Of a stretch of 64,000 bases of DNA, positions 1 to 40,959 are shown piece by piece. The position numbers and the translations under genes were made by a program. The notes beneath the pieces are model-generated. The model saw nothing but the letters and a program-made list of their open reading frames with translations, was not told the DNA's origin and searched no databases. This DNA comes from an uncultured Acidobacteriota bacterium. GTDB taxonomy: Bacteria; Acidobacteriota; UBA6911; RPQK01; JAJDTT01. Numbering within the stretch: position 1 is the first letter of the stretch; each line of letters opens with the position of its first letter. The stretch lies in NCBI GenBank assembly GCA_951812665.1, contig CATOST010000018.1, positions 1-64,000 of the forward strand. Direction: 5' to 3'.

Positions 1-1145
1 CTGCAAGCCGCCGACTCTCTGAGGCGCCGTTCCGTCGGCGATCAGGTGACCTACGTGGTCAACCGAAACATCAATTTCACCAACGTTTGCGCAAAGAAAT
101 GCAGTTTTTGCGCCTTTAGCCGAACCTACCGCAGCGACGAAGGCTATTTGCTGCCCGTGTCTGAAATCGTCCGCCGGGCCCGGGTAGGCGCGGCAATTCG
201 GCGCCACCGAGGTCTGCATCCAGGCCGGGCTGCCTCCTGCCATGCCGGGAGACCACTACATTCGAATCTGCCAGGCGGTCACGGACGCTCTTCCAGGCCT
301 GCACGTCCACGCCTTTTCGCCGGAGGGAGATCTCTTACGGGTGCCAGCGTTCCGGGATGCGGGTTCGAGACTACCTGGCGGGAACTCCTCGACGCCGGGA
401 TCGGCAGCCTGCCGGGTACATCGCCGAAATCCTGGACGACGATCTGCGCAACCTCATCTCGCCCGGACGCATCAGCAGCGGGGAATGGACCCGAACCATC
501 TCGACGGCCCACTCCCTGGGCATCCGGACCTCCTCCACCATGATGTTCGGCCACCTCGAGACTCCGGTTCACGTTGCCCGGCACCTGGCACACCTGAGAA
601 CCATCCAGCGCCAGACCGGCGGCTTTTACCGAGTTCGTTCCCTTGGGCTTCGTCCACACGGAGGCTCCCCTTTACCAGAGCAAACGGCTGCCGAATCTGC
701 GGCCCGGGCCCCACGGGGTTGGGAGGTTCTGAAGGTTCACGCCGTCTCCCGGCTGGCGCTGGACAAGGATATTCCCAACCTTCAGGTCTCCTGGGTCAAG
801 GAAGGGACGAAGCTGGCTCAACTCTGCCTGGCGGCGGGTGGAAATGACCTGGGGGGCACGCTGATCAACGAGAGTATTTCCACCGCCGCCGGGGCCGGCC
901 ACGGCCAACTGGTGACCCCGGTAGAGCTTCATCGCGTGATTCGCGATGCGGGCAGAGTCCCGGCGGAACGGAACACGCTCTACGGGACCCTGCGCACCTT
1001 CACCGGCAGAGAAGAAGACGGGACTCACCCACTGGACTCCCTGCGGGGCGGCGACCGAAACCTTTTCGGCTCCTACGCCCAGTTGACCCGGTCGCGGCGT
1101 TTTCGCTTCAACCCGGGCGCAGCCCGGAGACATTCCCCGGATTGA
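1..1145 (+). pseudogene. cofH: FO synthase subunit 2 CofH (radical SAM), 5' end off the window, broken by about six frame changes
   Basis: CofH joins tyrosine to 5-amino-6-ribitylaminouracil, the radical SAM step that starts the deazaflavin ring of coenzyme F420. The first frame runs in from the left edge and holds NINFTNVC and the CxxxCxxC cluster motif (CAKKCSFC, about 90-113). CofH-like sequence then continues in other frames: frame 2 from about 190 to 320, frame 3 to about 375, frame 1 to about 420, frame 3 to about 620, frame 1 to about 712, and frame 3 to the TGA at 1143-1145. Conserved segments survive in every piece (ATEVCIQAGLP, DYLA, GSLPGTS, EILDDDLRN, STMMFGH, EFVPLGFVHTEAPLY, LGGTLINESIS). 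No single frame can make the enzyme. It faces the cofE operon, with 38 bp between the two 3' ends. Either base-calling indels or very recent decay could explain this; residue conservation across frames favours the former. Confidence 0.85.
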
Positions 1146-1183
1146 CTGCCACGCCGATGCGCCGGATGCCGGCGCCGCGGTGA

Positions 1184-1939
1184 CTAGCGAAACAGGTCCC
1201 GCTCCGGAGGCCGCACCAGGTTCGACCCGCCGCCAGGACCTGCTTCCAGCCGCACACCCCGGACCAGGGCCGCCGGCACCCGGCGCCGCTTTCCCATCAC
1301 CAGCTCCGCCGCGGAGGCGATTTCGTCGGCCCGGGCGATGCAGGTCGCCTGAAGCGTTCGGCCGAACCCGTCCTTGCTTCCCCGATAGTCCGACAGCGGC
1401 ATTCCTCCCGCCACACCGATCGCCACGTTCACCTGCCCCTCCCGCCAGGGGCGGCCGAAGGTATCGGTGATGATCACTGCCAGGTCCACCCCCATCGTTT
1501 CAGTCAGACACGCCCTGATGCCGGCCGCGGATCGGTCCGGATGTTCCGGAAGCAAGATGGCCATCCCCTCCGGACTATTGGAGAGATCGACGCCGGCATT
1601 GGCGCACACGAACCCGTGGCTGGTTTCAGCCAGCAGCACGCCGCGATCCATCCTCACGATCCTGCGGCTCTGGGACAGGGCCAATTCGACCACCCTGGGG
1701 TCCCGGCCCCATTCCCGCGCCCAGGAGTTGGCCAGCGGCGACGGGGTGACCGTCGCCAGAGGAACAGTCCGCCCCTCCGCCTTGGAAACGATCTTGTGGG
1801 CCAGCACCAGAATATCCCCTCGGCGGACCTGGATAGGGATCCTTCTCAGCGCCTCCAGCAGCAGCGCGCCCAGAGCGTCCCCCGGTTTCACTTCGGGGAG
1901 TCCCGGGATGCCCAGGATCTGCACGCCGGCGTCACTCAT
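1184..1939 (-). CDS. cofE: Coenzyme F420-0:L-glutamate ligase
   Basis: CofE uses GTP to add gamma-linked glutamates to F420-0 and so builds the polyglutamate tail. The 251-residue protein starts at ATG 1937-1939 (MSDAGVQILGIPGLPEV). It shows family segments such as GDILVLAHKIVSKAEG near the N-terminus, the central VIITDTFGRPWREGQVNVAIG, and DEIASAAELVMGK toward the end. It is the single-domain form, without the C-terminal nitroreductase-like domain of actinobacterial FbiB. The start overlaps the last 8 bases of cofC, so the two are probably translationally coupled. An in-frame upstream extension to 2167 exists but only mirrors cofC in another frame, so I rejected it. Confidence 0.9.
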   Translation of the reverse strand: MSDAGVQILGIPGLPEVKPGDALGALLLEALRRIPIQVRRGDILVLAHKIVSKAEGRTVPLATVTPSPLANSWAREWGRDPRVVELALSQSRRIVRMDRGVLLAETSHGFVCANAGVDLSNSPEGMAILLPEHPDRSAAGIRACLTETMGVDLAVIITDTFGRPWREGQVNVAIGVAGGMPLSDYRGSKDGFGRTLQATCIARADEIASAAELVMGKRRRVPAALVRGVRLEAGPGGGSNLVRPPERDLFR

Positions 1940-2606
1940 GAAGGTTCCGCACCTTCTCAGCCAGACGGGTTGCGAGGCCACTCTCGGCGAGATAGCTCCT
2001 GGTCGCCGCCCCTCCCTCTCTCTGCCAAAATCGAACCAGGTCTTCGGGTCCGTCCAGGTCCAGACCCAACCGCGGGTTCGACAGCACGGTGGCAGGCACC
2101 CGTGCACGGCGCGCCTCGGCCAGATGACGGCGCAGGCTGTCCCGGCCGAAACGCGACGGAAAGGCATCCGGCGGCATTCTCAACAGGGCATTGGTGCCCC
2201 GGCCGTCTCGAGAGGGCACCAGCAGAGCCGCCGGGGAAGCCAGCGGGCGGCCCAGCAGAGCGTCCACATCCCGTCCCTGGATCAGCGGGACATCCAGCGG
2301 CACCCGTAGCACACAGGTTGCTCCCTGTTGGCGCAGTGCGGCTGCGCACTCGTCCACGGAGCGGCTCTCGGAGGATTGGCGCCGCTCCCGGATGAATCCC
2401 CATTGCCGCCGGGCGGCGTAGGCCGCAAGCTCCGGGTCCCGGCCTGCCACGACCACCTTGTCCGGTGTTCCGGCGCCGGCCAGCGCCCTGCCCACATCCT
2501 CCAACATGGCCCAGACCAGCCCGATCCTTTCCCGGCGGGACAGCCACGGAGCCATTCGCCGCTTGGCTTGGACGAGCTCCTTGACTGGTATCAGGACGAC
2601 TTTCAC
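1932..2606 (-). CDS. cofC: 2-phospho-L-lactate (or PEP/phosphoglycerate) guanylyltransferase
   Basis: CofC activates a phosphorylated three-carbon acid with GTP to give the guanylylated donor that CofD attaches to FO. The 224-residue protein has a nucleotidyltransferase layout: an N-terminal PVKELVQAKRRM segment resembling the PxKxxxxAKxRL motif, then LDVPLIQGRDVDAL in the middle, and LDLDGPEDL near the C-terminus for metal and nucleotide binding. Which acid it uses (2-phospholactate, PEP or 3-phosphoglycerate) cannot be read from sequence alone. The ATG overlaps the cofD stop by 4 bases (ATGA), and the 3' end overlaps cofE by 8 bases. Confidence 0.88.
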   Translation of the reverse strand: MKVVLIPVKELVQAKRRMAPWLSRRERIGLVWAMLEDVGRALAGAGTPDKVVVAGRDPELAAYAARRQWGFIRERRQSSESRSVDECAAALRQQGATCVLRVPLDVPLIQGRDVDALLGRPLASPAALLVPSRDGRGTNALLRMPPDAFPSRFGRDSLRRHLAEARRARVPATVLSNPRLGLDLDGPEDLVRFWQREGGAATRSYLAESGLATRLAEKVRNLHE

Positions 2607-3583
2607 GCCAACCGCAGCAGGGCGCGAGCCAGCTCCCGTTTCGCGCCGGAGGTGTCCATGACGGTATTCCGAACCACGACCCGGACGCCCAGGCGTTCGA
2701 TGGACGCAGCGCTGCTCGCATCGCGCTCATCCAATACGAAAACGTCCAGAAGACCGCGATAGATCCGGGCAACGCCTTCGGCCGAGACCGGATGCCCCAG
2801 CTCCCTGAGCATTTTTGCCGCCGGCCCTTTGAGGGCGCGCCCGCCCACGATTGGACTCACCGCCACCACCAGGCCCCGACTCTCCACCACAGCCCGCCTG
2901 ATCCCGGGGACCGACAGAATAGGCCCCACGCTGATAAAGGGGTTGCTGGGACAGATGACGATGACCCGGGCCTTTCGAATCACTTTCTCCACGCCCGGCG
3001 CGGCACGTTGACGACTCAAACCCGTGTATTCGAAACCGTGAACCCGGGGCGCGCACTTCTCCCTGACCAGATACTCCTGAAGATGAAGGCGGCCGGCATC
3101 GGTCTCCACCAGAGTCGGATTGTAGCCTTCGGCCATTGGCAAGACTGAAGATTCTATCCCGAACCCTTTGCAGATGTGCGCGGTTACGGCGGCCAGGCCC
3201 CACCCCCGGTTCAGCAGGGACGTCCGCCAGAGATGCGTCGCCAGATCCTGGTCTCCGAGGCCGAACCAGGTGTCCGCGCCCAAGCGCCCGAGGGCCTTCA
3301 GACAGCGAAAGGTGTCGCCCTCGATGCCCCAGCCCCAAGTCTGGTTGGACAGACCCGCCAGGGTATAGGTGATGGTGTCGAGATCCGGACAGATCCGGAG
3401 CCCGAAGGTTTCCAGGTCATCCCCGGTGTTGACCACGACGGACAGGCGGCTCCCAAGCCCCTCCTGCGCCAAGCCCCAGACCAGTTTCGCGGCGCCGACG
3501 CCTCCGGCCAACGCCACTACGCGAACGTCGCCCGATCCGCAGAACCTATCACCGATCTCGACAGGACGAGGGGCTGCCACCAC
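2603..3583 (-). CDS. cofD: 2-phospho-L-lactate transferase CofD (F420-0 or dehydro-F420-0 synthase)
   Basis: CofD transfers the phospho-acid from the CofC product onto FO, giving F420-0 or its dehydro form. The 326-residue protein contains the family opening ALAGGVGAAKLVWGL, then VVVNTGDDLETFGLRICPD, LGDQDLATHL and VICPSNPFISVGPIL, spread as in known CofD proteins. The first 20 residues before the glycine loop are less conserved, so the start could lie a little downstream. It sits 6 bp after npdG and overlaps cofC by 4 bases, the middle of a compact four-gene operon. Confidence 0.9.
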   Translation of the reverse strand: MVAAPRPVEIGDRFCGSGDVRVVALAGGVGAAKLVWGLAQEGLGSRLSVVVNTGDDLETFGLRICPDLDTITYTLAGLSNQTWGWGIEGDTFRCLKALGRLGADTWFGLGDQDLATHLWRTSLLNRGWGLAAVTAHICKGFGIESSVLPMAEGYNPTLVETDAGRLHLQEYLVREKCAPRVHGFEYTGLSRQRAAPGVEKVIRKARVIVICPSNPFISVGPILSVPGIRRAVVESRGLVVAVSPIVGGRALKGPAAKMLRELGHPVSAEGVARIYRGLLDVFVLDERDASSAASIERLGVRVVVRNTVMDTSGAKRELARALLRLA

Positions 3584-3589
3584 GAATCG

Positions 3590-4249
3590 TCAAAGCCCCA
3601 CGACCCGAAAACGCGATTCGTGAACCCGGTATCGGCGATTGATGCCGATCAGCAGGGCACTCATTCGCTCCAGCGTCCGGGCCGCGTCGAGCTGGCCCGC
3701 GTCCACCGTCCTAACCCCCGGCCATCGGCTCAGCACTCGCGCCACCTCCCGCTTCCGGCGCCCCGAATTGCCACAAACGAAGACGTCGCAATCGAGAGGA
3801 ACCGCCAGCTCCCCCAGAAGGCGGGCCGGAACCGTCTTCAGGGCCGCCACCAAGGCGCCCGGATCAGGAAGGCCCGCCGCCAACTGCTCGCTCCCGGAAC
3901 CGGCCTCCAAGGGGGCCATCTTGATCCGGCGGGCGTCGAACACTACCGGTACCGTGACGTCGACCCAGGTGGTCTCAGGCGCAACGTGCGGCGCACAGCT
4001 GAACACCAGCTCGGCGGCCCCGGCGAAAGGCGCCGCCACAAAGAGGACCCTGGACTGGGTCGCTACCTCCAGGTTCAGCGCCCCCCGGATCCCGGTTTTG
4101 CCTCCCCGAATAGAATTCAACTCGGACGCCGTCCCGGTCGCTCGGGTCCGGCTCCGAGATCCCACCAGGACCTCGAATCCCGCCTCCGCCAAACGCAGCG
4201 CGATGCCCCGGCCCTCTTGACCGGTGCCGCCGAGCACACCCAGCTTCAC
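3590..4249 (-). CDS. npdG: NADPH-dependent F420 reductase (F420H2:NADP oxidoreductase)
   Basis: This enzyme moves hydride between NADPH and F420, linking the F420 pool made by the downstream genes to central metabolism. The protein opens with KLGVLGGTGQEGRGIALRLA, the Rossmann loop typical of the family, and carries VGSRSRTRA just after the second beta strand, where NADP phosphate is bound. I chose the GTG at 4247-4249, preceded by GAAGGCG, because it places the Rossmann strand at residue 2 as in relatives. An in-frame ATG at 4345 adds 32 residues without family resemblance. The length is about 219 residues, near the usual size. It is the first gene of the F420 operon. Confidence 0.87.
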   Translation of the reverse strand: MKLGVLGGTGQEGRGIALRLAEAGFEVLVGSRSRTRATGTASELNSIRGGKTGIRGALNLEVATQSRVLFVAAPFAGAAELVFSCAPHVAPETTWVDVTVPVVFDARRIKMAPLEAGSGSEQLAAGLPDPGALVAALKTVPARLLGELAVPLDCDVFVCGNSGRRKREVARVLSRWPGVRTVDAGQLDAARTLERMSALLIGINRRYRVHESRFRVVGL

Positions 4250-4525
4250 AATTCGCCTTCTTTTTTCGCCTGCCGCGTGAAACTCCAACCCGAGATCGAC
4301 GCTTCCCGGAAGCCGCATTACAACAAAGCGCGGTAGCCCCCACAAGTCTCAGGTTCAGCGGCTTTTGTCCACCGCGGGCCGCTGCCTTCACGGGCGCGTA
4401 AGGCTTGCTAGGGAGAGAGCGTCCGCGTAATCTCTCCAGTGCGTTGAGGAGTTGAAGAAGGGGCCGCCAGCAGCATTCCAGCGGCGGTGTAACGGCTTGG
4501 GCCCGGAGCTTCCGGGTATCTGTCA
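4250..4525. other. Intergenic region between divergent npdG and the four-domain lipid synthase
   Basis: This 276 bp stretch separates two divergently transcribed genes and must hold both promoters. I see no strong -35/-10 pair, no tRNA and no convincing open frame. A weak GGAG lies about 20 bases ahead of the ATG at 4526. Confidence 0.5.
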
Positions 4526-7500
4526 ATGAACTCGGTATCCGAATATCTCAAGGGCAAGACGCTGTTCATCACCGGAGCCACCGGCTTCCTGGGACAGTGC
4601 CTGGTCGAGAAAATCCTTTGGGCGGTACCGGACGTCGAGCGCGTCTACATCCTGATCCGCCCGCGAACGAACCTGCGCGGCGCGGTCGTGACCGCCCAGA
4701 TGAGGTTGGAACGGGAACTCCTCCGGTCCAGTTCCTTCGACCGCCTCCGGAGCAGGCTCGGTGACGGCTTTTCGGCTTTCCTGAAAGAAAAACTGGTCGC
4801 GGTTTCCGGCGACTTGTCCAGGGATGACCTGAACCTCGACGAGCCGACTCGGATTCATCTTCAGAGCCAGACCGACATCGTCATCAACAGTGCTGCCGTC
4901 GTCTCCTTCGACGCCCCGCTGGACGAAGCCTACCACCTGAATATCCTGGGAGCTCAGCGCGTCGCCCGTTTCGCCCAATCCTGCGACGATTGCGTCCTGG
5001 TGCACGTCTCCACCGCCTACGTCTGCGGCGCCGCCGTCGGCTCCGTCCCGGAAACGATTCCGGAGATCTCGGATCAGGGCAAAGGGCCCTTCCCGGCACG
5101 CGCCTTCAGCGACGTGGATCTGGACATCGAACGCATCGAGGCGATACTCGCCTCGGTCCGGGAGCGCGCCTATGCGCCTGAACTCGAGCGCGACTTCACG
5201 GCGGCCCTGCTGCGGCGATTCAAGCGCTCGAAGCGGGGCCGCAACGTTCGGAGGCGGGAGAAGATCGAGAATCTCCGCAAGAAATGGATCCAGAACCAGC
5301 TCTCCCAGGAAGGGATGAGCTGGGCTCGCGAGCGGGGCTGGAACGACACCTACACCTACACCAAGGCCATCGGGGAACAGATGGTCTTGCGAACCCGCAA
5401 CGGGGCTCCGACCATCATCATCCGCCCCTCTGTGATCGAAAGCGGTTTTTCGGAGCCGAGCCCCGGATGGCTCGAGGGCCTTCGCATGGCGGACCCCCTC
5501 ATCGCCGCCATCGGCAAGGGCCGTCTCCGGGCACTGCCTCTGAGCCCCAAGGTCATCATCGACCTGGTGCCCGTGGACATGGTGGTGAACGCGCTGCTGG
5601 CGTCGCTTCCAGCGGTCTCGACCGCAACCGCCGTCCAGATCTACCAGGTGGCCACCGGGTCCTGCAATCCCATCACATTGGGCTATCTCTACGATCTCAT
5701 CTATCGCTATTTCAAGAGAAACCCCATGTTCGACAGGTCGGGGCGGCCCATCGACATCCGTTACCTCCGCTTCCCGAAACCGGCCAGCTTCCGCTTGCAA
5801 CATCGACTCAAGGCGCTACCCCTGAACACGGCGGCCAGCGCCTTGGACAAGCTCGCCGTATTCGGCGCCTTCGACGGCGCCCAGCGCTTCAACCGGCGCC
5901 TCTCGGCCCTGAAGGCCGCTCATGAAAAGCTGTATTACTACGGAGAGATCTACGAACCGTATCTGAACTTGAATTGCCGCTTCGGAGTGGAGAACACGCT
6001 GGGCCTTCTGGACACGATGTCCCCCCGGGAGCGGGAAGTCTTCAACTTCGACGTGACGCGCCTGAACTGGCGCCACTATGTTCAGAACATCCACATCCCC
6101 GGGGTCAAGAAGTTCATTTTGAAGATGGAGGGAGCGGGAACGCTGGAACTCGATGTCCAGCCGTCGGGTGAAGGCGGATCCGTCTCGACCATCAACGACC
6201 TCCTGGCATACAGCGCATCCCGGTATTCCGAGAAGACCGCGCTCAGGATGCAGCGCGACGGTGAGTGGATCAGCTATACGTACGCGGATCTCCAGCGCCG
6301 GGCCCGGATCGTCGGCCGGCAACTCCGGACCCAGGGTCTGGCCAAGGGCGATCGAGTGGTCCTTTTTGCGGAAAACCAACCGGACTGGGGCGCCGCGTAC
6401 CTGGGTGCAGCCTCCCGGGGAGTCGTCGTCGTTCCCCTCGATTCCCAGGCGTGGCACCGTGAGGTCTGGTCCGTCGCCCGCTTCACCGAGGCCCGGGCCA
6501 TCCTCGCTTCCGAGCGCACGATCGAGCGGCTGCCGCCCGACAGCCTGGCGCGGAATGAAGCCGGCGAGACCCCGATTCGACTCCTGAACATCAACCACGT
6601 GGGCCAACCGTTCGACCTTCCGCAATACCCCAGGAGCACCGGAACGGCGGCCCCCGTTCCCGAGGCGCCCGGCGACCGCCCGCTGAGAGTCGAAGCCGAG
6701 GACCCGGCTTCCATCATCTTCACTACCACCACGGCAGCGGACCCCAAGGGCGCCGTTCACACCCATTCCAGCTTCCTCAGCAATCTCCACGGCATGAACC
6801 GTTATCTGGCGGCAGAGGAGACGGATCAGATCCTTTCGGTGCTCCCGCTCTACCATGCTCTGGAGTTCACGTGCGGGTTTCTGTCCCCCCTGTATGGGGG
6901 CGCAACCATCACCTACCTTCACTCCCTGAAGCCTCGAGTCATCCTGAAGACCATGCGGGAGACGGGCACCACCTGCATGTTGGGCGTCCCCAGTCTCTAC
7001 GCTCTGATCCGGGACGACATCAACCGGCGCACTCTGCGCGCCTCCAAGTCACCTCTGAAGTCCAACCTGGTGGCCAGGTCGCGTCAGCTCAGCAAGTCCA
7101 TCGACAAGACCTTCGGCAAGAACCTGGGCCGCCAGCTCTTCGCTCGGGTACACCAGGAATTCGGGGGCAAGATCCGAGCCTTCGTCAGTGGCGGTTCAGC
7201 TCTGGGCAATGAACTCTACGACGACTTCAAGGCCTTGGGCCTGACCATCTACGAGGGCTACGGCCTCACCGAGACCGCGCCGGTCCTCACGGTCAATCCA
7301 CTGAATCGAAGCCGTCGGGGCTCGGCCGGCAAGCCGTTGCCCGGGACCGAGTTGCGGATCTTTCGGGCCGATGACCGGGGAGAGGGCGAGATCATCGTCC
7401 GGACGCCCAGCCTCATGAAGGGCTACTACAAGAACCCCGACGCCACCCGGGCCGCGATGCGGGACGGCTGGTTTCACACGGGTGATCTGGGGTGGGTGGA

Positions 7501-8896
7501 CGAGGACGGATACCTCTACATTACGGGGCGCAAAAAGAACGTCATCGTCACGGGCGCCGGCAAGAACGTCTACCCGGTGGACCTGGAGGCCATCTACCGC
7601 CACGTTCCGGCGGTCGAGGACATCTGCGTGGTGGGAACCCCCAAGGGACTCACCGAAGACGTCCATGCCGTCATCGTGCCCAAGAAGGAGATATTGCAGG
7701 AGGTGGCGGCCGAGGAATGGCCGCGGGCCATGAAGCGTGCGACTCGCGCGCTGGCCCGCCAGCTTCCGGGCTATCAACGGCTGCAGCACATTCATCTTTC
7801 GGAAACGCCCCTGCCGCGCCGCAGTGACGAGTCTCTCGCCCGCGACGTGATCCTGCAAAACGTGCGCCGAAGCGTCGCCCGTTCTCGAGCTCGCGGAGGC
7901 CCTTCGGGGCGTCCCCGCGGAAGCGACGTCGCAACCGAGTTGACCCGGGAACTGAGCCGAATCTCGGGGACCCCCTCAGCGGAAATCACGCCCGATTCCC
8001 ATCTCTACACCGACGTGGGCCTGGATTCGCTCGCCGCCATGGAGCTGCTGATTCAGCTGGAGCATCGGTTCGGCATCTCGCTATCGGAGGAGCGCGTCGC
8101 CTCCCTGGTGAGCTTTGGCGATCTGGTCGATGCGGTGAAGGAGAGCACGTCGGCGCATGCGGCCGGCAAAGACGGCACGGTCGCCGTCCGCTCCGCCTTG
8201 CCGTGGTCACAGCGCCCGCCCATCGACCGCGCCCTCCTCAGCTTCTCCTTTTCCGCTCTACGGCTCCTGTACGCAAGCTACTTCCGGCTGCAGCTGCGTT
8301 TTCCGGAACGCCTACCCCGTGAGGAGGCCTACATCATCGCCGCCAACCATTCCAGCCATCTGGACAGCGGCGCCATCATCGCCGCATTGGCGGGGGCGCT
8401 GGGCCCGAGCCAGGCCAGGAAGCTCCATCTTCTGGGGGCCCGCGACTACTTCTTCAACAATCCCCTTCGTGCCTGGTTTTTCAGCACCTTCCTCAACGTA
8501 GTGCCCATCGAACGGGAGGAGACCTCGTTGGCGGGACTCCGCACCATCCAGACGATCCTGCAGGAAGGCGAACCCATTCTCATCTTCCCGGAGGGGACAC
8601 GGTCCCGGACCGGCGAACTCCGATCCTTCAAACCGGGCCTCGGCCTCATCGCCCGGGAGCTCAGGGTGCCGATCGTCCCCACCCACATCGACGGCACCTA
8701 TCGGGCCTTCCCGGCGGGACGCTACCTTCCCCGTCCGGGACGGCTGGCGGTGACATTCGGCAAAGCGATCAGGACCGAGCAGTATTTCGCGGACGGCGTT
8801 GAGGAGTCCCGCGTCAGCCTCTACCGAAAGATCGCCGGGGAGGTCCGCGAGCACGTCGTTCGGCTGGGGGACGGGGTCCGGGACGAACCAGTTTGA
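4526..8896 (+). CDS. Four-domain lipid synthase: fatty acyl reductase - acyl-activating (AMP-binding) - acyl carrier protein - PlsC acyltransferase
   Basis: This 1456-residue protein joins four lipid enzymes. Residues 1-500 are a fatty acyl-CoA/thioester reductase: GATGFLG (about 17-23), HVSTAYVCG, and Y276xxxK280. Residues 555-1090 are an AMP-forming ligase: TTTTAADPKGA from T733, YEGYGLTE, FHTGDLGW with D987, and GRKKNVIVTGAGKNVYP. Residues about 1130-1210 are an acyl carrier domain with GLDSLAAMEL; S1168 is the expected phosphopantetheine site. Residues about 1250-1440 are a 1-acylglycerol-3-phosphate acyltransferase: H1275xxxxD1280 in NHSSHLD, and FPEGTRS from F1354. Such a protein could activate a fatty acid, hold it on the ACP, reduce it to an alcohol or aldehyde, and acylate a glycerolipid. 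From memory the set resembles myxobacterial ElbD, an ether-lipid enzyme. The A3 motif is unusual: TTTTAADPKG where TSGTTGxPKG is common. acpS at 40926 could supply the phosphopantetheine. Domain calls are firm; the product is inferred. Confidence 0.9.
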   Translation: MNSVSEYLKGKTLFITGATGFLGQCLVEKILWAVPDVERVYILIRPRTNLRGAVVTAQMRLERELLRSSSFDRLRSRLGDGFSAFLKEKLVAVSGDLSRDDLNLDEPTRIHLQSQTDIVINSAAVVSFDAPLDEAYHLNILGAQRVARFAQSCDDCVLVHVSTAYVCGAAVGSVPETIPEISDQGKGPFPARAFSDVDLDIERIEAILASVRERAYAPELERDFTAALLRRFKRSKRGRNVRRREKIENLRKKWIQNQLSQEGMSWARERGWNDTYTYTKAIGEQMVLRTRNGAPTIIIRPSVIESGFSEPSPGWLEGLRMADPLIAAIGKGRLRALPLSPKVIIDLVPVDMVVNALLASLPAVSTATAVQIYQVATGSCNPITLGYLYDLIYRYFKRNPMFDRSGRPIDIRYLRFPKPASFRLQHRLKALPLNTAASALDKLAVFGAFDGAQRFNRRLSALKAAHEKLYYYGEIYEPYLNLNCRFGVENTLGLLDTMSPREREVFNFDVTRLNWRHYVQNIHIPGVKKFILKMEGAGTLELDVQPSGEGGSVSTINDLLAYSASRYSEKTALRMQRDGEWISYTYADLQRRARIVGRQLRTQGLAKGDRVVLFAENQPDWGAAYLGAASRGVVVVPLDSQAWHREVWSVARFTEARAILASERTIERLPPDSLARNEAGETPIRLLNINHVGQPFDLPQYPRSTGTAAPVPEAPGDRPLRVEAEDPASIIFTTTTAADPKGAVHTHSSFLSNLHGMNRYLAAEETDQILSVLPLYHALEFTCGFLSPLYGGATITYLHSLKPRVILKTMRETGTTCMLGVPSLYALIRDDINRRTLRASKSPLKSNLVARSRQLSKSIDKTFGKNLGRQLFARVHQEFGGKIRAFVSGGSALGNELYDDFKALGLTIYEGYGLTETAPVLTVNPLNRSRRGSAGKPLPGTELRIFRADDRGEGEIIVRTPSLMKGYYKNPDATRAAMRDGWFHTGDLGWVDEDGYLYITGRKKNVIVTGAGKNVYPVDLEAIYRHVPAVEDICVVGTPKGLTEDVHAVIVPKKEILQEVAAEEWPRAMKRATRALARQLPGYQRLQHIHLSETPLPRRSDESLARDVILQNVRRSVARSRARGGPSGRPRGSDVATELTRELSRISGTPSAEITPDSHLYTDVGLDSLAAMELLIQLEHRFGISLSEERVASLVSFGDLVDAVKESTSAHAAGKDGTVAVRSALPWSQRPPIDRALLSFSFSALRLLYASYFRLQLRFPERLPREEAYIIAANHSSHLDSGAIIAALAGALGPSQARKLHLLGARDYFFNNPLRAWFFSTFLNVVPIEREETSLAGLRTIQTILQEGEPILIFPEGTRSRTGELRSFKPGLGLIARELRVPIVPTHIDGTYRAFPAGRYLPRPGRLAVTFGKAIRTEQYFADGVEESRVSLYRKIAGEVREHVVRLGDGVRDEPV

Positions 8897-12411: not shown

Positions 12412-13095
12412 ATGAACGCTGAAGCAGTGCACCTGTCGCAGCGCCTTCGCCTGGCTGCAGGGAGTACGGTCGGATGGGCCCTGATTTGGAGCCTCGGCAC
12501 GCTCCTTCGGTATCGAGTCGAAGGTTGGGAACATTTTGCCCGGTTAAATCGCCGAGGCATTCCCTTTATCTTCAGCTTCTGGCACAACCAGATCTTTTGC
12601 GCCACCCATTTCTGGCGATTCCGGGAGATCGGCGTGATCACCAGCCAGCACGCCGACGGGGAGTACATGGCTCGCATCATTCAACGATTCGGGTACTTTC
12701 CGGCCAGAGGATCCAGCCGTCGAGGCTCTACCCAGGCCCTCCTCCAGCTCAAACGCCATCTGGCCGACGGCCGGCCCGTGGGTTTTGCCGCCGACGGACC
12801 CGTGGGGCCGGCCTACAAGGTCAAGCCCGGGCCGCTCTGGCTCTCCATGAAGACCGGGGTTCCCATCCTTCCGTTCCATATCCAGCCCCGACGATTCTGG
12901 GCCGGATCCGGTTGGGACGGGTTTCGAATCCCCAAGCCCTTCTCCCAAACCCTGGTGAAGATCGGGCAGCCGCTACTGGTGCCTCCCGGACAATCCGCCG
13001 CGGACTGGCTGCCCAGATATCAGGGAACGATGGACGCACTCAAGGAATACTGCGAATCCTACCCCTGGAGCCGGAAGAGAAGCCCGGAGCGCTGA
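12412..13095 (+). CDS. DUF374 family lysophospholipid acyltransferase-like protein
   Basis: The 227-residue protein belongs to the lysophospholipid acyltransferase-like fold known as DUF374. It has an N-terminal hydrophobic stretch, then SFWHNQIF, a HxxxxD-like region, FPARGSSRRGSTQALLQL, and GFAADGPVGPAYKVKPG. Relatives are thought to acylate a lipid A-like or phospholipid acceptor at the inner membrane, but the substrate is unproven. It follows tyrA by 6 bp. Its 3' end overlaps the convergent VWFA gene by 56 bp. Confidence 0.8.
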   Translation: MNAEAVHLSQRLRLAAGSTVGWALIWSLGTLLRYRVEGWEHFARLNRRGIPFIFSFWHNQIFCATHFWRFREIGVITSQHADGEYMARIIQRFGYFPARGSSRRGSTQALLQLKRHLADGRPVGFAADGPVGPAYKVKPGPLWLSMKTGVPILPFHIQPRRFWAGSGWDGFRIPKPFSQTLVKIGQPLLVPPGQSAADWLPRYQGTMDALKEYCESYPWSRKRSPER

Positions 13096-20510: not shown

Positions 20511-21911
20511 ATGACCATGGGCGGTGCGCCGCCGCCCAATTCTTCTTTGCAAAGTCAACAGAGCTTTCAGGGGAGGCCGCCCGCTTTGGATTTATGGCGC
20601 GACATCGTAGCCTCCCTTGAAGCAGCAGGACAGATCTCACCCGAGAATCTGGCCGTCTACTTCCAAGCTACCTCCCAGGTCCGCTACGATCACATTGCTC
20701 GGCGACTCGTGGTTCGGGTTCCCAACAGCCGCTTCAGCAGGTGGATTTCTCACCAATACGGCGATCTCCTGAAAACAAAAATGGGAGAAATGGGGTTTCC
20801 AAACGCGAAAATCATTTTCCGAGCAGATCTGGACGAACCGCAATCAAGCCTGATCTCGTCACCTCACCTGTTGGGCTCCTACGTCGGCGCGGCCGAGTGC
20901 AACCTGAACCAGCGTTACACCTTTGCCAACTTCGTCGTCGGGTCGAGCAACCAATTCGCCCACGCTGCCGCACTGGCAGTCGCGGAACGCCCTTCCAGGA
21001 GTTACAATCCTCTCTTCCTCTACGGTGGCGTCGGGCTGGGCAAGACCCACCTCATGCACGCTATCGGACACTCGATCAAGATTGAGTTTCCCAGTGCAGA
21101 TCTCGCCTACGTCCCCTCGGAACGCTTCACCAACGACCTTGTCAACTCCATCCGTTTCGACCGGACCGCCGGTTTTCGACAGAAATACCGGAATATCGAC
21201 GTGCTGCTGATGGACGACGTTCAGTTCCTTGCAGGCAAGGAGAAGACTCAAGAAGAATTCTTCCACACCTTCAACAGCCTGTACGACGCCCAAAAGCAGA
21301 TCGTCATCTCCAGCGATTCCCCTCCTCACGAAATCCCGACCCTGGAGGAGCGTCTCCATAGTCGCTTCCAGTGGGGACTGATTGCGGACATACAAGCCCC
21401 GGACCTGGAAACCAAGGTCGCCATTCTTCGGAAGAAAGCAGCCTTGCAGCGGGTGGAACTCCCGGACGACGTGGCTTTTTTCATCTCAAGCAACACCAAG
21501 TCCAATATCCGCCAACTCGAAGGGTCGCTCATTCGTCTGATCGCCTACAGTAGCCTGATCGGCGAGGAGATCACCCTCGACCTGGCCCAATCCACCCTCA
21601 AGGATCTCGCCGCGACCGCGCAGCGAGTGATCACCATCGGAGAAATTCAACGGGTCGTCGCCCGACACTACTCCCTGACCATGTCCCAGCTCATCAGTCG
21701 GACCAACTCCCCGAGAATCGTGGTTCCGAGACAGATCGCCATGTACCTCTGCAAGCAGTTGACCCAGGCCTCTCTGCCCCGGACCGGCCGCGCTTTCGGC
21801 GACAGGCACCATACGACCGTGCTGCACGCCGTGCGGAAGATCTCTCGGCTCATCAAGAAGGACTCGCTGCTGCACTCCACTGTCAACAAGCTGACAGACG
21901 AAGTTTCATGA
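20511..21911 (+). CDS. dnaA: Chromosomal replication initiator DnaA, with an altered DNA-recognition motif
   Basis: DnaA binds origin boxes and opens the DNA. Domain I starts near LWRDIVASLEAAG. The AAA+ core has GGVGLGKTH (K178), LLMDDVQFL and the NIRQLEGSL sensor region. Domain IV carries RQIAMYLCKQLT and GRAFGDRHHTTVLHA. The usual signature is FGGRDHTTV; here the Asp of RDH is His (residue 433 from this start, codon 21807-21809) and the second Gly is Asp. In E. coli that Asp (D433) contacts box bases. I chose ATG 20511; ATG 20517 and GTG 20481 are alternatives, and none has a clear ribosome-binding site. Confidence 0.95.
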   Translation: MTMGGAPPPNSSLQSQQSFQGRPPALDLWRDIVASLEAAGQISPENLAVYFQATSQVRYDHIARRLVVRVPNSRFSRWISHQYGDLLKTKMGEMGFPNAKIIFRADLDEPQSSLISSPHLLGSYVGAAECNLNQRYTFANFVVGSSNQFAHAAALAVAERPSRSYNPLFLYGGVGLGKTHLMHAIGHSIKIEFPSADLAYVPSERFTNDLVNSIRFDRTAGFRQKYRNIDVLLMDDVQFLAGKEKTQEEFFHTFNSLYDAQKQIVISSDSPPHEIPTLEERLHSRFQWGLIADIQAPDLETKVAILRKKAALQRVELPDDVAFFISSNTKSNIRQLEGSLIRLIAYSSLIGEEITLDLAQSTLKDLAATAQRVITIGEIQRVVARHYSLTMSQLISRTNSPRIVVPRQIAMYLCKQLTQASLPRTGRAFGDRHHTTVLHAVRKISRLIKKDSLLHSTVNKLTDEVS

Positions 21912-22139
21912 CGTTTTCCCACTTTTCCACCGGTGGTAGAATGTAATAGCTGTGGAAAAGGCTGACCGGACTCATGCCGGTCCTTTTTCCACCTCGTATC
22001 AAGAGCCGAATTCACAACTGACGAGTGACTCTATCCGCTTGGAAATAAAAGTTTCTTCCAGTTCATCCACAGCCTGCGCAACCTCTACGACGACGGTTCG
22101 ATATACAATTCCTCTCGTTACTCGAAGACGGAGAACGCC
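21912..22139. other. Probable oriC: dnaA-dnaN intergenic region with DnaA-box-like sites
   Basis: Four 9-mers resemble TTATCCACA. They are TTTTCCACC (21923-21931), TTTTCCACA on the minus strand (21951-21959), TTTTCCACC (21985-21993) and TCATCCACA (22063-22071). The location between dnaA and dnaN is the common place for oriC, and the region is AT-richer than the genome average. No initiation has been shown; boxes with one or two mismatches are common by chance, but four in 228 bp is suggestive. Confidence 0.6.
21952..21992 (+). terminator. Hairpin after dnaA, nested between inverted DnaA-box-like sites
   Basis: GACCGG pairs with CCGGTC around the loop ACTCATG. The flanking GTGGAAAAGG pairs with CCTTTTTCCAC, so the stem is followed by a T run. 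It begins 41 bases after the dnaA stop and fits an intrinsic terminator. The outer arms are themselves DnaA-box-like sequences in opposite orientation. Confidence 0.6.
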
Positions 22140-23279
22140 ATGGACATTACTTTGAAGCGGGAGCATCTGTTCCCCGAGGTCCAACACCTTCAGACTATCG
22201 TCGAGAGAAAAACCACAGTGCCGATCCTTGGTCATGTTCTGCTTGAGACTATCGGGAACAATATTCTTCTGACCGCCACTGACCTGGACGTATCTCTGCG
22301 TTGCCGCTGTGAGGCCCAAGTAAGGGTGAGCGGGGCCCTTACCATCTCAGCCAGAAAACTCTTCGAGATCGTCCGTCTGGCCCCCCAAGATTCCGCAATT
22401 CAGATTAAATCCATCGCCGAGGGGGATTGGGTCGAGATCGGCTATGCTCGGTCCCGGTTCAAGGTGGCCGCCTTGGGGAAGGGGAACTTTCCCGAGATCG
22501 GCGAGGCGGAAGGCCAGGTCATTCGCATGGACGCGGCCATGATTCGGCGTATGATCGGAAGCTGCGTCTTCGCCATCACCCAGGAGGAGAGTCGATATAC
22601 TCTGGGTGGAGCGTTGGCCGTAATTACTCCTTCGGACCTTTCCCTGGTCACCACGGATGGGCACCGCCTCGTCATTGTCCAACGGGATGTGGAGATGGGT
22701 ATCGACCAGGAGGAGCTTCGAGTTCTGATTCCCAAGAAAGCACTCGTTGAACTGATGAAGCTGCTGGGAGAAGCCGGCGGGGAGATCGAATTCAGGAGTG
22801 GTGAAAGAAGGATCTCGTTTCGAATGGGCCGCCGGCTCTTGATCTCACGCATCCTCAGCGGCGAGTTTCCAAACTACAAGATGGTCATCCCGCAAGGGAA
22901 CGATCTGCACGCGCAGTTTGGCACCTTGGGCTTCACAGCGGCCTTGAGGCGGGTCGCCGTCGTAGCCGACCGGGAGACGCGGGCGGTCGAGCTGAGCGTG
23001 AGCGAGGGACAAGTCAAACTGGCGTGTGAAAATGCGAATGGGGAGCGAGCAGCCGAAGCGATGGAGGCGACCTACGAGGGGACACCGACCGTGATCGGTT
23101 TCAACGTGGACTATCTGCTCGACTTCGTCAATGTCGTCGATAGTGGGCAGGTGCGCATCTCGCTCAAAGACTCGGATACCCAGGGGCTGCTCCAGCCCCT
23201 CAGTGCGGCCGATGGCGACGACTCCGAAGCGGGCGGCGACTACATGATCCAATATGTCGTCATGCCGCTGAGCCTCTGA
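22140..23279 (+). CDS. dnaN: DNA polymerase III beta subunit (sliding clamp)
   Basis: The beta clamp rings DNA and tethers polymerase III. The 379-residue protein shows the three-domain clamp layout. It opens MDITLKREHLFPEVQHLQTIVERKTTVPIL, has ATDLDVSLRC in domain 1 and ITQEESRYTLGGALAVI with VTTDGHRL in domain 2, and ends VQYVVMPLSL-like (IQYVVMPLSL). The ending matches the usual MPMRL-type C-terminus. It follows the probable origin, and gyrB is next with 134 bp between; recF is not there. Confidence 0.96.
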   Translation: MDITLKREHLFPEVQHLQTIVERKTTVPILGHVLLETIGNNILLTATDLDVSLRCRCEAQVRVSGALTISARKLFEIVRLAPQDSAIQIKSIAEGDWVEIGYARSRFKVAALGKGNFPEIGEAEGQVIRMDAAMIRRMIGSCVFAITQEESRYTLGGALAVITPSDLSLVTTDGHRLVIVQRDVEMGIDQEELRVLIPKKALVELMKLLGEAGGEIEFRSGERRISFRMGRRLLISRILSGEFPNYKMVIPQGNDLHAQFGTLGFTAALRRVAVVADRETRAVELSVSEGQVKLACENANGERAAEAMEATYEGTPTVIGFNVDYLLDFVNVVDSGQVRISLKDSDTQGLLQPLSAADGDDSEAGGDYMIQYVVMPLSL

Positions 23280-23326
23280 GCCGTACTGTTCCATCGCCCC
23301 GTTTGCGACACCTGTACCGGGTATAA

Positions 23327-25852
<2,526 letters not shown>

Positions 25853-25990
25853 GCGCTTGCGGTCGAGGTCGGCGCGGCCGGTTTCCTGGCGTTTCCACTG
25901 TGACCCCAGCGCTGCACGTTTCCCCAGTCGGGCGCCGCTTCGCCCGCGCACCGTGACTTTTCGAATGGCCAGGATGGGAGGAACAAGTCG

Positions 25991-28450
25991 ATGAGAGAGT
26001 ACCAGGGCCGGGAGATTCCGGTCACCATCGAAGCGGAGATGAAGGCGTCCTACCTGGACTACGCCATGTCGGTCATCGTGGGGCGGGCCCTGCCGGATGT
26101 CCGGGACGGGTTGAAGCCGGTTCATCGGCGCATCCTCTACGCCATGAGCGAGCTGAACAACAGGAGGAACCGCCCCCACAAGAAGTCGGCGCGGGTCGTG
26201 GGTGAGGTCATCGGAAAGTACCATCCCCACGGGGATGCGGCTGTCTACGATGCGCTGGTCCGAATGGCTCAGGATTTTTCCATGCGGGAGTTGCTGATCG
26301 ACGGCCAGGGGAACTTCGGGTCCATCGATGGCGACTCGCCGGCAGCCATGCGATACACCGAGGTTCGCATGGCGCGAATCGCCAACGAGATCCTGGCGGA
26401 CATCGAGAAGGAGACGGTCGATTTTCAGGCCAACTACGACGAGTCAATGCAGGAGCCGACCGTTTTGCCGGCTCGAATTCCCAATCTCTTGATCAACGGG
26501 GCCTCCGGGATTGCCGTGGGGATGGCGACCAATGTGCCTCCCCACAACCTCAGTGAGGTCATCGACGGCCTTTTGCTCCTGCTCGATCGACCGGATGCGA
26601 CATTGTCGGCGCTGATGCGGTTGATTCGGGGACCGGATTTTCCCACCGCGGGCATCATCTACGGGCGCAAGGCCATCCACAGTGCGTACGCTACGGGCCG
26701 CGGCATCATCCAGCTGCGGGCCAAGGCCGCCATCGAGAAGATCAGAAAAGACAAGGAGGCCATCATCATCGATGAGCTCCCGTATCAGGTCAACAAAGCC
26801 AAGCTCATCGAGACGATTGCAGCGCTCGTTCGCAGCAAGAGAATCGATGGGATCAGCGACTTGAGAGACGAGTCCGATCGGGACGGGATGCGGGTCGTCA
26901 TCGAGCTGAAGCGAGGCGAGCAGCCCCAGGTGGTCCTGAACCAGCTCTACAAACTGACGCCGATGCAGAATTCGTTCGGGATTATTCTGCTGGCCCTGAC
27001 GGCCGGCCGGCCGCGCGTCCTGACCCTCAAGGAAATGCTGAGCCATTTCCTTGCACACCGCAGGATCGTCGTGCGGAGGCGCACACAGTTCGACCTGAAG
27101 AAGGCCGAAAAGCGGGCACACATCCTGGAGGGTCTTGCCAAGGCGCTGGATCACCTGGATCTGGTGATCGCCCTGATCCGAGGTTCGAGGACGCCGGCGG
27201 AGGCCAAGACACAGTTGATCCAGCGCCTTGAGTTCACCGAAATTCAGGCTCAGGCCATACTTGAAATGCGGCTGCAGCGCCTCACGGGCCTGGAACGGGA
27301 CAAGATCGTGGAGGAACTGGAGCGGATTCGGGACCGGATCGTCCAACTGCGGAAGATTCTCACCAGCGGGGCCGAACTCCGGCGGGTGATCCGCGACGAA
27401 CTCACGGAGATTCAGGACAGGTACCATTCGCCGCGCCGCACGGTGATCCTGGACGAGGCGATCGACCTGACGATCGAGGACCTCATCGCCGAGGAGCAAG
27501 TGGTCATCACAGCCACGCACGGTGGCTACATCAAGCGGACCGCCCTTCACATCTACCGTAGTCAGCATCGCGGAGGCAAGGGCCGGATCGGCATGTCCAC
27601 GCGCACGGTCGATGACGTCCTCGACTATCTTTTTGTCGCCTCCACGCACAGTTATATCCTCATCTTCACGAACCAGGGGAGAGTCTACTGGCTGAAGGTT
27701 TATGAGATTCCCGATGTGGGCGCCGCCGGGAAAGGGAAGCCGATCGTCAATCTGGTCAAGTTGGAGCGGGGCGAGAAGGTGGCGGACATGATCGCCGTGC
27801 AGGACTTCAAGACCCCGGGTTTCATCGTGATGGCATCTCGCCAAGGGCGGGTTAAGAAGACGGCGTTGGGGGCTTACTCTCGACCCTTGGCGAAAGGGAT
27901 CATCGCCTGTACGGTGGCGCAGGGGGACGAGTTGATCGTAGTGAGCCGAACCAGCGGCAAAGACGACATTCTTCTCTGCACGGAACAGGGTAAGGCCGCC
28001 CGGTTCTCGGAAAAACATGTCCGGGAGATGGGGCGCGTCGCTCGGGGTGTATGGGGTATACGCCTCAAGGGGGGCGACTCGGTCGTCAGCATGGGCGTCA
28101 TTCGAGAAAATCACGAGAGCATATTGGCGGTGACCGAACACGGTTTCGGAAAGCGGACACCAGTCAACGAATACGCCCCGAAGGGGCGGGCGGGTCAGGG
28201 CGTGATCAACATCAAGACGAGCGGCCGAAACGGCAAGGTTGCGGCGACATTCCCGGTGGGACCGGGTGCTGAGTTGATCATCATCACCGCGAAGGGCAAG
28301 ATCATACGTCTGGAGGCGGATAGCATTCGAATGACGGGCCGCAACGCATTTGGCGTGACGCTGATGGAGATGGGGGATGGAGACACTGTGGCCGATGTGA
28401 GCCTGGTGGCCGACGGGGTTGTAGAAGTGGAATCGGAGGCTTCCGAATGA
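25991..28450 (+). CDS. gyrA: DNA gyrase subunit A
   Basis: GyrA cuts and rejoins DNA through a tyrosine in AMRYTEVRM (near residue 121). The 819-residue protein has the QRDR segment [20 protein letters not shown]. By E. coli numbering residue 83 is Ala instead of Ser, and Asp87 is kept. The GyrA box that wraps DNA reads QHRGGKG (usual QRRGGKG). Six beta-pinwheel blades follow, with repeats such as [11 protein letters not shown] and [12 protein letters not shown]. The ATG has GGGAGGAA upstream. The stop overlaps the TPR gene (ATGA). Confidence 0.96.
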
Positions 28451-29728: not shown

Positions 29729-30349
29729 TCAGGGATTGATGCAGCGGATCGCCTTCCAGTGGCCCAGGAAGTCGATGGGCATTTCCGATTCGATTTCCAG
29801 CCCGCACTTGCGCAGCAGCTTTTTTCGATCCAGATCGGTTCGGAAACCGATCCGGTAGCAGAGGGGGGAAATGAGCGTCTCGAGGGAACCGAGGACAGGG
29901 TTCTCATTGCGAAAATGGTTCAGAAAGACAAGATATCCGCCCTTCTTGCAGACCCTCTTCATTTCTTCAATCACCATTACGGCGTCGGGGACCACGGAGA
30001 TGAAATAGGCGGCGAGGATTCGATCAAAGCTGCCGGACGGAAAATTGAGACGGGTCGCGTCCATCTTCATCAACTGGATATTCTCCAGCTGCAATTCCTT
30101 CGTCCGGCGCCGCGCCTGCTCCAACATTTTCTCGGAAAGGTCGACACCCGTTATCTGGATGTTTCGCGGGAGCGTCGGAAGGGAGAGTCCGGTTCCAACG
30201 CCCACTTCAAGGAGACGAGAGCCAGGCGTCAGGTCCAGCAGGAGGGGTGCCATTTCCCGCCCACTGTGGAAAATGGGCCCGAACAGGAGATCGTAGAAAC
30301 GGGAGTACCAGTTGTAAACCCTCTCGATGTGTTCGACATCGACACTCAC
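29729..30349 (-). CDS. SAM-dependent methyltransferase of the PmtA type (phosphatidylethanolamine N-methyltransferase)
   Basis: The protein resembles bacterial phosphatidylethanolamine/phosphatidyl-N-methylethanolamine methyltransferases. It has VYNWYSRFYDLLFGPIFHSGR, a pattern typical of PmtA relatives, then the SAM loop LLEVGVGTGLSLP, GVDLSEKMLEQAR and MDATRLNFPSGSFDRI. The expected role is making phosphatidylcholine or its methylated precursors at the membrane. I favour the GTG at 30349, preceded by AAAGGGGGG; an ATG at 30376 lacks a ribosome-binding site. It diverges from hpt. Confidence 0.72.
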   Translation of the reverse strand: MSVDVEHIERVYNWYSRFYDLLFGPIFHSGREMAPLLLDLTPGSRLLEVGVGTGLSLPTLPRNIQITGVDLSEKMLEQARRRTKELQLENIQLMKMDATRLNFPSGSFDRILAAYFISVVPDAVMVIEEMKRVCKKGGYLVFLNHFRNENPVLGSLETLISPLCYRIGFRTDLDRKKLLRKCGLEIESEMPIDFLGHWKAIRCINP

Positions 30350-30458
30350 AAATCGGCCCCCCTTTGTCCGCGCCATTGTAGCATTATCCCCGCCGGAGGA
30401 CAGAACATGCCTGTGCTATCATCAGGCGGTGTCTCAAAGGGGGGCTGAGGGGCTCGAC

Positions 30459-39606: not shown

Positions 39607-40959
39607 ATGACTTCCAGTTTCCACATCTTCAGCTTCGGCTGCCGCACCAACCAGTCCGACAGCGCCGCCATCCGGCAGGACTTCCTGGGGCGCGGCTACC
39701 AGGAGGCAGGGGACTGGCGGAAGGCGGGGATCATCATCGTCAACTCCTGTACCGTCACGCATCGAGCCGATCAGCAGGTGCGGCAACTGGTCCGCCGGTT
39801 TCACCGCGGAAACGCGGCGGCCCGGATCCTGGTGACGGGTTGCTATGCTCAACGGGATCCGGAAATCCTGTCTCGAATTCCAGGTGTCGAAGCCGTCATC
39901 GGCAACACTCACAAGAGCGGCCTGGTGGGGATCGTGGACGGGACGAGGGAGTCCGCCCTGACGGCGGACGAGCTGGCGGACGTGTACCGGCAGGAGTTCG
40001 TCAAGGTCCGCACCATGGAGGGCGCGACCGCGGGATCGCCGGGGCTTCGAGTCCGACCCTTCGTCAAGGTGCAGGACGGCTGTGACGCCAAGTGTACGTA
40101 CTGCATCATTCCGCTGGTTCGCGGGCCCGGACGGAGCCTGCCGCCGGAGCAGGTTCTGGCCCAGGTGCGGCAGTTGGCCCGAAAGGGGTTCCAGGAGGTG
40201 GTTCTGACCGGAATCCACATTGGAACTTACGGAGTGCATCTGAAGCCGCGTTATTCTCTGGATCGCCTCTTGGCGGACGTGGCTGAGACGCCGGGGCTGG
40301 TCCGGCTGCGGTTGAGTTCCATCGAACCGATGCAGCTGTCGCGGCGGGTGATCCGGTTGGCGGCCGGGAACGACAAGATCTGCCCGCATTTCCACATCTG
40401 CCTGCAGAGCGGCAGCAACCGGATCCTGCGGAAGATGTTGCGCCCGTACAACACGTCCAGATTCGGAGAGATCGTGCAGGAGATCCGGGCCACGTTGCCC
40501 CAGGCGGCCATCGGAACGGATCTGGTGGTCGGATTTCCGGGGGAGACGCGACGGGACCATCTCGAAACCGTCCGTTTCGTTCAGGCCATGCCCTTCACCT
40601 ATCTCCACGTGTTCCCTTACAGCGACCGGCCCGGGACCCGGGCGTCGTCAATGCGGCCCAAAGTCGACCCGCGGGTGCGGCGTCAGCGGTGTTGGGAGCT
40701 GAGGCAGATTTCGGCAGCAAAGAATCGCGTCTTCCGGCGACGGTTCATCGGCAGGAAGCTTTCGGTCCTGACGCTGGGGGAGTCTGCCGCCGGCAGGTGG
40801 GAGGGGATCTCCGCAAACTACATCAAGGTTCGTTTTCCGGTCCCCATGGCGCCCAACAGAATGGTCCGGGTCGAGGCCGCAGGGGAGACGGAGGATGGTC
40901 TGGCCGGGAGCCCCGGGTCAACGTGTCAACCGTCGAGGACGACGCAGGCCACTGCGTAG
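39607..40959 (+). CDS. mtaB: tRNA t6A37 methylthiotransferase MtaB
   Basis: MtaB adds a methylthio group to t6A at position 37 of ANN-reading tRNAs. The N-terminal domain has FGCRTNQSDS and NSCTVTHRADQQVRQ with conserved cysteines. The radical SAM domain has CDAKCTYCIIPLVRGPGRS (CxxxCxxC), LTGIHIGTYG and LQSGSNRILRKMLRPYN. The C-terminal TRAM-like part is short. I use ATG 39607; an ATG at 39559 would add 16 residues without family resemblance. The 3' end overlaps the convergent acpS by 34 bp. Confidence 0.9.
   Translation: MTSSFHIFSFGCRTNQSDSAAIRQDFLGRGYQEAGDWRKAGIIIVNSCTVTHRADQQVRQLVRRFHRGNAAARILVTGCYAQRDPEILSRIPGVEAVIGNTHKSGLVGIVDGTRESALTADELADVYRQEFVKVRTMEGATAGSPGLRVRPFVKVQDGCDAKCTYCIIPLVRGPGRSLPPEQVLAQVRQLARKGFQEVVLTGIHIGTYGVHLKPRYSLDRLLADVAETPGLVRLRLSSIEPMQLSRRVIRLAAGNDKICPHFHICLQSGSNRILRKMLRPYNTSRFGEIVQEIRATLPQAAIGTDLVVGFPGETRRDHLETVRFVQAMPFTYLHVFPYSDRPGTRASSMRPKVDPRVRRQRCWELRQISAAKNRVFRRRFIGRKLSVLTLGESAAGRWEGISANYIKVRFPVPMAPNRMVRVEAAGETEDGLAGSPGSTCQPSRTTQATA

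Follow-up and report, generated by a model that had tools for sequence, protein, structure and literature searches.

The 64,000-nucleotide stretch of an uncultured Acidobacteriota bacterium analysed here (hereafter the window) contains an ElbD-type open reading frame with an ATG start and without internal stops (Table 1). A Pfam scan recovered, in a single frame and in the same order, the reductase, ligase, acyl carrier protein (ACP) and PlsC domains that had been proposed in the initial annotation; every domain scored above its gathering threshold except AMP-binding_C, which fell slightly below, and the reductase and PlsC parts were assigned to the NAD_binding_4/Sterile and Acyltransferase families. 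The residues named in that annotation all occupy their positions (GATGFLG at 17, Y276/K280, D987, S1168, H1275/D1280 and FPEGTRS at 1354), as does the altered ligase A3 motif TTTTAADPKG at 733. The protein combines the domains and S/YxxxK residues of a fatty acyl reductase (FAR) with the NHX4D and FPEGTRS motifs of a PlsC/AGPAT acyltransferase, and its closest PDB structure is the fatty acyl-CoA reductase 7eoz (1.4e-81). With FAR-like, ACS, ACP and AGPAT-like domains in that order on one chain, it has the ElbD architecture, and the earlier comparison with published ElbD holds for domains and order alike.

Table 1 Features of the ElbD-type gene and of further genes in the window (positions counted from its first nucleotide)
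Feature	Position	Strand	Evidence
ElbD-type four-domain protein, 1456 aa	4526..8896	+	orthologues in 15/18 order genomes
Fatty acyl reductase, NAD(P)-binding Rossmann part	4568..5593	+	Pfam NAD_binding_4 aa 15-356, 4e-62; GATGFLG, S162, Y276, K280
Sterile domain (FAR C-terminal) of reductase	5879..6124	+	Pfam Sterile aa 452-533, 1.1e-14
Acyl ligase (ANL) N-terminal subdomain	6209..7429	+	Pfam AMP-binding aa 562-968, 3.3e-70; AF2 pLDDT 89, ANL fold
Degenerate A3 phosphate-binding loop, TTTTAADPKG replacing TSGTTGxPKG	6722..6751	+	TSGTTG intact in 0/14 order orthologues
Acyl ligase C-terminal subdomain	7583..7801	+	Pfam AMP-binding_C aa 1020-1092, 7e-5, slightly below gathering score
Degenerate A10 loop; Ser1103 (7832-7834) at the position of the relatives' catalytic Lys	7805..7849	+	Lys in 2/14 order orthologues and in comparators
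Acyl carrier protein domain, Ser1168	7940..8137	+	Pfam PP-binding aa 1139-1204, 6e-12
PlsC/AGPAT acyltransferase, H1275-X4-D1280 and FPEGTRS	8288..8689	+	Pfam Acyltransferase aa 1255-1388, 1.7e-24; motifs intact in 14/14 orthologues
Intergenic stretch, divergent from F420-dependent oxidoreductase gene; presumed promoter	4319..4525	.	
DUF374	12412-13095		present in window
PmtA-like methyltransferase	29729-30376		167 bits vs 390-bit equivalog cut-off
acpS	40926-41300		present in window

In the window, the gene is flanked by F420 genes, PCMT and RNase HII. Positions 357-4318 hold the F420 synthesis genes CofH (C-terminal part), CofE, CofC and CofD together with an F420-dependent oxidoreductase gene that is divergent from the ElbD-type gene, and a promoter scan of the intergenic stretch revealed no convincing consensus. 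A dnaA-dnaN-gyrB-gyrA block at 20781-28450 and a sign change of the GC skew near 18-24 kb mark a probable chromosome origin region. The DUF374, pmtA and acpS genes, which the initial annotation had offered as helpers of a lipid route, are all present, but as dedicated partners they were ruled out because they are embedded among housekeeping genes, with DUF374 nearby in some relatives only and conservation as partners absent. Neighbours corresponding to elbB (HAD), elbC and elbE (NAD-epimerase) were not found beside the gene in the window.

Orthologues were detected in 15 of the 18 genomes of the order, all of them metagenome-assembled genomes (MAGs) of 65-98% completeness; 14 of these 15 are single intact frames with 54-88% identity, and the fifteenth (G002) is interrupted by what appears to be a frameshift. 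The reading frame is thus not a chance one, and the intact frames together with low dN/dS rule out a pseudogene or an assembly error. Across the phylum, full-length matches occur in 41 of the 396 genomes sampled, with 26 outside the order at 30-34% identity. In a tree of the ligase-PlsC part, the order forms one clade (support 100) from which the remaining full-length ElbDs stand apart, except for an adjoining Verrucomicrobiota sequence, L018, whose placement is unsure given its long branch (support 87). A FAR-less ligase-ACP-PlsC paralogue occurs class-wide and is encoded in the source genome (G000) at C18:67815-70337 (L011:7737-10412, minus strand), 59 kb from the ElbD-type gene; it has intact ligase motifs, and genes for radical SAM and cytochrome oxidase proteins lie nearby.

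Elsewhere in the source genome, on a contig other than that of the ElbD-type gene, we located an AGPS gene (C5:134484-136250) whose product matches mammalian AGPS 4bby with an E value of 5e-166 and carries the active-site signature SHHHGVGKLR, as expected for a true member of the family. It adjoins a gene for an SDR reductase, for which no match was found against the PDB at 1e-30. AGPS is present in 11 of 80 relatives and all 11 carry the ElbD-type gene (the AGPS of G012 being a contig-end fragment); four further genomes have the ElbD-type gene without AGPS, and the former is therefore not tied to the latter. The two genes are unlinked on the chromosome except in G016. A dedicated acyl-DHAP synthase or separate GNPAT was not identified in the source genome. 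CarF/PEDS1 (Lipid_desat, PF10520) is absent from G000 as well, and vinyl-ether plasmalogen synthesis was rejected there on that ground; among 38 genomes the domain was found in G011 only. That genome encodes two CarF/PEDS1-type desaturases (L118:5323-5835, minus strand, and L119:1482-1988, plus strand; PF10520 3e-56 and 1e-46) and combines them with AGPS and the ElbD-type gene, indicating plasmalogen potential in Acidobacteriota; according to a review, true CarF outside myxobacteria is reported from Leptospira only.

A different gene set accompanies ElbD in other genomes. An operon frequent in relatives consists of a lipid kinase (DAGK/YegS), ElbD, a HAD phosphatase, a Zn-dependent dehydrogenase (ADH) and a LarA-type hydroxyacid isomerase, the latter being a LarAH14/15/16-type protein in G010. 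The DAGK-HAD-ADH-LarA genes are missing from the gene's flanks throughout the genus of the window, and HAD and LarA-type genes were not found in the whole source genome at the thresholds used; elb-type neighbours are partly present in G004, G008, G010 and most f29 loci. In other Acidobacteriota, a further 20 ElbD loci were inspected, and HAD and LarA lie within about 9 kb in 18 of them, mostly arranged as HAD-LarA-ElbD-epimerase, which matches the elbB-elbC-elbD-elbE order given for Myxococcus xanthus. In these Acidobacteriota elb clusters (L159-L178 and L090, e.g. L159:5199-13297), a LarA-like gene sits at the elbC position, and by this analogy ElbC, a protein of unknown function, is possibly LarA-like. 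Two other Acidobacteriota (L029:3072-5546 and L031:4747-7245) show an unfused arrangement, in which a separate protein of ~830 aa with its FAR domain after an N-terminal part of ~270 aa is encoded next to two stand-alone ligase genes.

Among the ElbD-bearing genomes examined, 11 have AGPS and lack HAD, and seven have HAD beside or near ElbD and lack AGPS, which was sought in each (G004, G008, G010, G060, G061, G072 and the L018 genome). Neither gene is present in G014 (72% complete); the L017 genome, seen at a single locus, lacks HAD there. Within the order, the exclusion gives a Fisher p of 0.003, or 0.009 counting G014, both uncorrected for kinship. It could be fortuitous, with genome incompleteness and common ancestry producing it between unrelated genes, given that the counts rest on MAGs 65-98% complete, that only three HAD-positive genomes lie inside the order, and that the contig of G011 ends right after its ElbD. 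Against this, AGPS was still not found in the AGPS-negative genomes when re-checked at a loose threshold, HAD lies near ElbD in the great majority of the further loci, and the congeners G008/G011 and G010/G016 have opposite states, yet are sisters in the ElbD tree, from which we conclude that the state switched more than once. Judged separately from the readings of the protein itself, such a coincidence appears unlikely. A contig of G016 (G016:C64) bearing ADH and LarA is nearly identical to G010 (ADH 100%, LarA 97%), whereas the ElbDs of the two genomes are only 75% alike, and it was therefore treated as likely contamination of the MAG and not as native to G016.

Turning to the ligase, a second loss was found beyond the altered A3 loop noted initially, as the catalytic A10 lysine is also replaced (S1103). 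TSGTTG is intact in none of the 14 order orthologues, compared with 18/19 other full-length ElbDs (the exception being L018 with TSGTTFE) and 19/22 FAR-less paralogues, these 19 and 22 proteins being the 41 comparators for all motif counts; G738 is lost in 14/14 and T737 in 13/14 order orthologues. The A10 lysine is lost in 12/14 (retained in G006 and G012), against full retention in the comparators (19/19 and 22/22), and position 1103 varies among S, E, K, G, T and R in the order with no new consensus. Because two orthologues without A3 retain the lysine and its position otherwise drifts (S, E, G, T, R), the A3 loop was probably lost first, leaving the lysine free to change afterwards. In a motif-blind scan, 69 ligase positions were at least 95% identical in the 41 comparators; 46 are retained in every member of the order and 10 are lost in the order, seven of the latter in or directly beside the A3/A10 loops. 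The idea that an acidic A3 residue repels ATP was dropped, as paralogues with an intact loop carry D there too.

A5, A7 and A8, the motifs that hold nucleoside and acyl-AMP, are strictly conserved in the order, and the other catalytic residues of the protein are retained across the orthologues. Within-order identity is 62% for the ligase core, 59% for FAR and 59% for PlsC, and the ligase dN/dS of 0.07-0.21 resembles that of the other domains and indicates purifying selection; decay of the whole ligase was ruled out, since its core is conserved as much as the other domains. The strict conservation of A5, A7 and A8 and the purifying selection would also suit a fully working ElbD, in which the altered A3 and a substitute for the A10 lysine still activate and a single chain performs activation, loading, reduction and acylation, and the ligase of M. 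xanthus ElbD does show activity in vitro (PMC9131029). However, the residues lost belong to both ATP-handling loops and the drift at position 1103 has settled on no substitute, making this reading distinctly unlikely. The initial proposal that the chain itself activates the fatty acid was thus not borne out, given that nearly all members of the order lack both the A3 phosphate loop and the A10 lysine of the ligase, and judging from these substitutions, ElbD is probably retained in the order for something other than ligase activity. By sequence, the A3 TSGTTG and A10 Lys expected of a competent ElbD ligase are missing here, although such competence may be no defining trait of ElbD.

An AF2 model of the ligase domain (pLDDT 89, pTM 0.89) shows an ANL fold whose closest superpositions are with structures like the thioester-forming MenE ternary complex 5x8f (rmsd 4.4) and which fits the adenylate-forming luciferase 4g36_B poorly (11.3), while the model of the intact paralogue behaves in reverse (4g36_B 3.2, 5x8f about 11), both comparisons resting on one model per protein built from the same 43 sequences. 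The predicted conformation is at most suggestive of a domain that is no longer adapted to the first half-reaction.

Taken together, we favour, with a probability of about 0.6, an ElbD-type ether-lipid enzyme whose ligase no longer adenylates, with an acyl chain loaded from elsewhere being reduced and transferred and AGPS making the ether. Starting from the observed domains, residues and conservation, the loss of A3 and A10, the presence of AGPS and SDR, and the AGPS/HAD exclusion, we infer every reaction, acyl donor and product as follows. An acyl chain preactivated elsewhere, either as acyl-ACP or acyl-CoA supplied by fatty acid synthesis or by the intact paralogue, would be held on the ACP of the ElbD-type protein and reduced by its reductase domain to the fatty aldehyde or alcohol. 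AGPS may then exchange the alcohol into acyl-dihydroxyacetone phosphate, the adjoining SDR would reduce alkyl-DHAP to alkyl-glycerol-3-phosphate, and an acyl group could be added by PlsC, either that of the ElbD-type protein or that of the paralogue. The ligase-like domain would be retained as an acyl- and ACP-binding module, performing at most the second (thioester) half-reaction. That the genome also encodes a true AGPS with an SDR reductase beside it makes ether-lipid chemistry much more likely, and as read from the sequence the protein probably makes alkyl lipids while fatty acid activation takes place elsewhere, its likely partners being AGPS and SDR elsewhere in the genome or, in relatives, the DAGK-HAD-ADH-LarA operon. 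Counting against this reading are the two orthologues that retain the A10 lysine, the four genomes with the gene but without AGPS, the failure to identify a dedicated acyl-DHAP synthase and the general lack of linkage between AGPS and the gene. Furthermore, most of the ether lipid of M. xanthus disappears when elbD is mutated and little when AGPS is (PMC9131029), so that ElbD works mainly without AGPS there.

Since FAR families serve wax ester synthesis too, the protein could instead yield a non-ether product. This might be a fatty alcohol or aldehyde destined for wax esters, or an unusual polyol or sugar-acid lipid made jointly with the relatives' HAD, Zn-dehydrogenase and LarA-type genes, whose operon of lipid kinase, HAD phosphatase, polyol-dehydrogenase-like ADH and LarAH14/15/16 hydroxyacid isomerase would suit it. 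An elbD-bearing Pontiella showed no ether lipids (PMC11868695), but the invariable company of the ElbD-type gene wherever true AGPS occurs in the relatives and the requirement of elb genes for M. xanthus ether lipids (PMC9131029) render this quite improbable.

Extending the ether-lipid reading to the whole order, we tentatively propose, as a possibility short of an even chance, that the ligase is a conserved non-adenylating, acyl-passing module and that ElbD pairs with either of two interchangeable ether routes, AGPS and SDR or the elb-type HAD set with Zn-dehydrogenase and LarA-type isomerase. If true, the HAD set would provide candidate genes for the AGPS-independent bacterial route. Myxobacterial ElbD makes ether lipids largely without AGPS, and related genomes that retain ElbD with either AGPS or HAD-type genes represent an apparent natural swap experiment, which narrows the candidate genes to short lists and offers pairs of congeneric genomes for direct testing. 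It is also relevant to the question of which bacteria in soil and sponges produce the ether lipids used as climate proxies.

The architecture itself is not new, as published ElbD and homologues from sponge Acidobacteriota share it. M. xanthus ElbD (ABF88003.1) unites FAR1-like, ACS, ACP and AGPAT-like parts in one chain, is required for most ether lipid, and has in vitro activity shown for the ACS and ACP parts and not for FAR and AT (PMC9131029); its elb operon is MIBiG BGC0000871 (Lorenzen et al. 2014, as cited in PMC9131029 and PMC9426513). Homologues with the same architecture are described from sponge Acidobacteriota and Poribacteria (PMC9426513) and elbD homologues from many phyla (PMC11868695). 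What is new, beyond this known architecture and general role, is that the adenylation motifs are lost across the order and that AGPS and HAD exclude each other, neither of which was found in the passages covered of the papers cited here.

Compared by architecture only, M. xanthus ElbD has the same four domains in the same order, and the catalytic residues of reductase, ACP and acyltransferase are present here; unlike its active ligase, however, the domain studied here has lost the A3 loop and A10 Lys, and the genes for ElbB, ElbC and ElbE are absent beside it. The sponge elbD genes share architecture and phylum and possibly belong to the very same lineage, but are flanked by hydrolases and oxidoreductases instead of F420 and housekeeping genes, and adenylation-motif loss is not discussed in the passages of PMC9426513 covered. 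Other Acidobacteriota ElbDs (families f29, f77 and f30; 31-34% identity) are likewise full-length four-domain proteins, but with intact ligase motifs and mostly in the HAD-LarA-ElbD-epimerase cluster. The class-wide FAR-less proteins (Aas/PRK08633-like, 33-35% identity) share the ligase, ACP and PlsC domains, whereas they have no reductase and keep A10 intact and A3 mostly so. In contrast to the mammalian peroxisomal route FAR1-GNPAT-AGPS-DHRS7B, FAR is fused here to ligase, ACP and PlsC and no separate GNPAT was identified, but FAR, AGPS and SDR are all encoded in the source genome, and the mammalian alkyl-DHAP reductase DHRS7B also belongs to the SDR family (PMC13200781).
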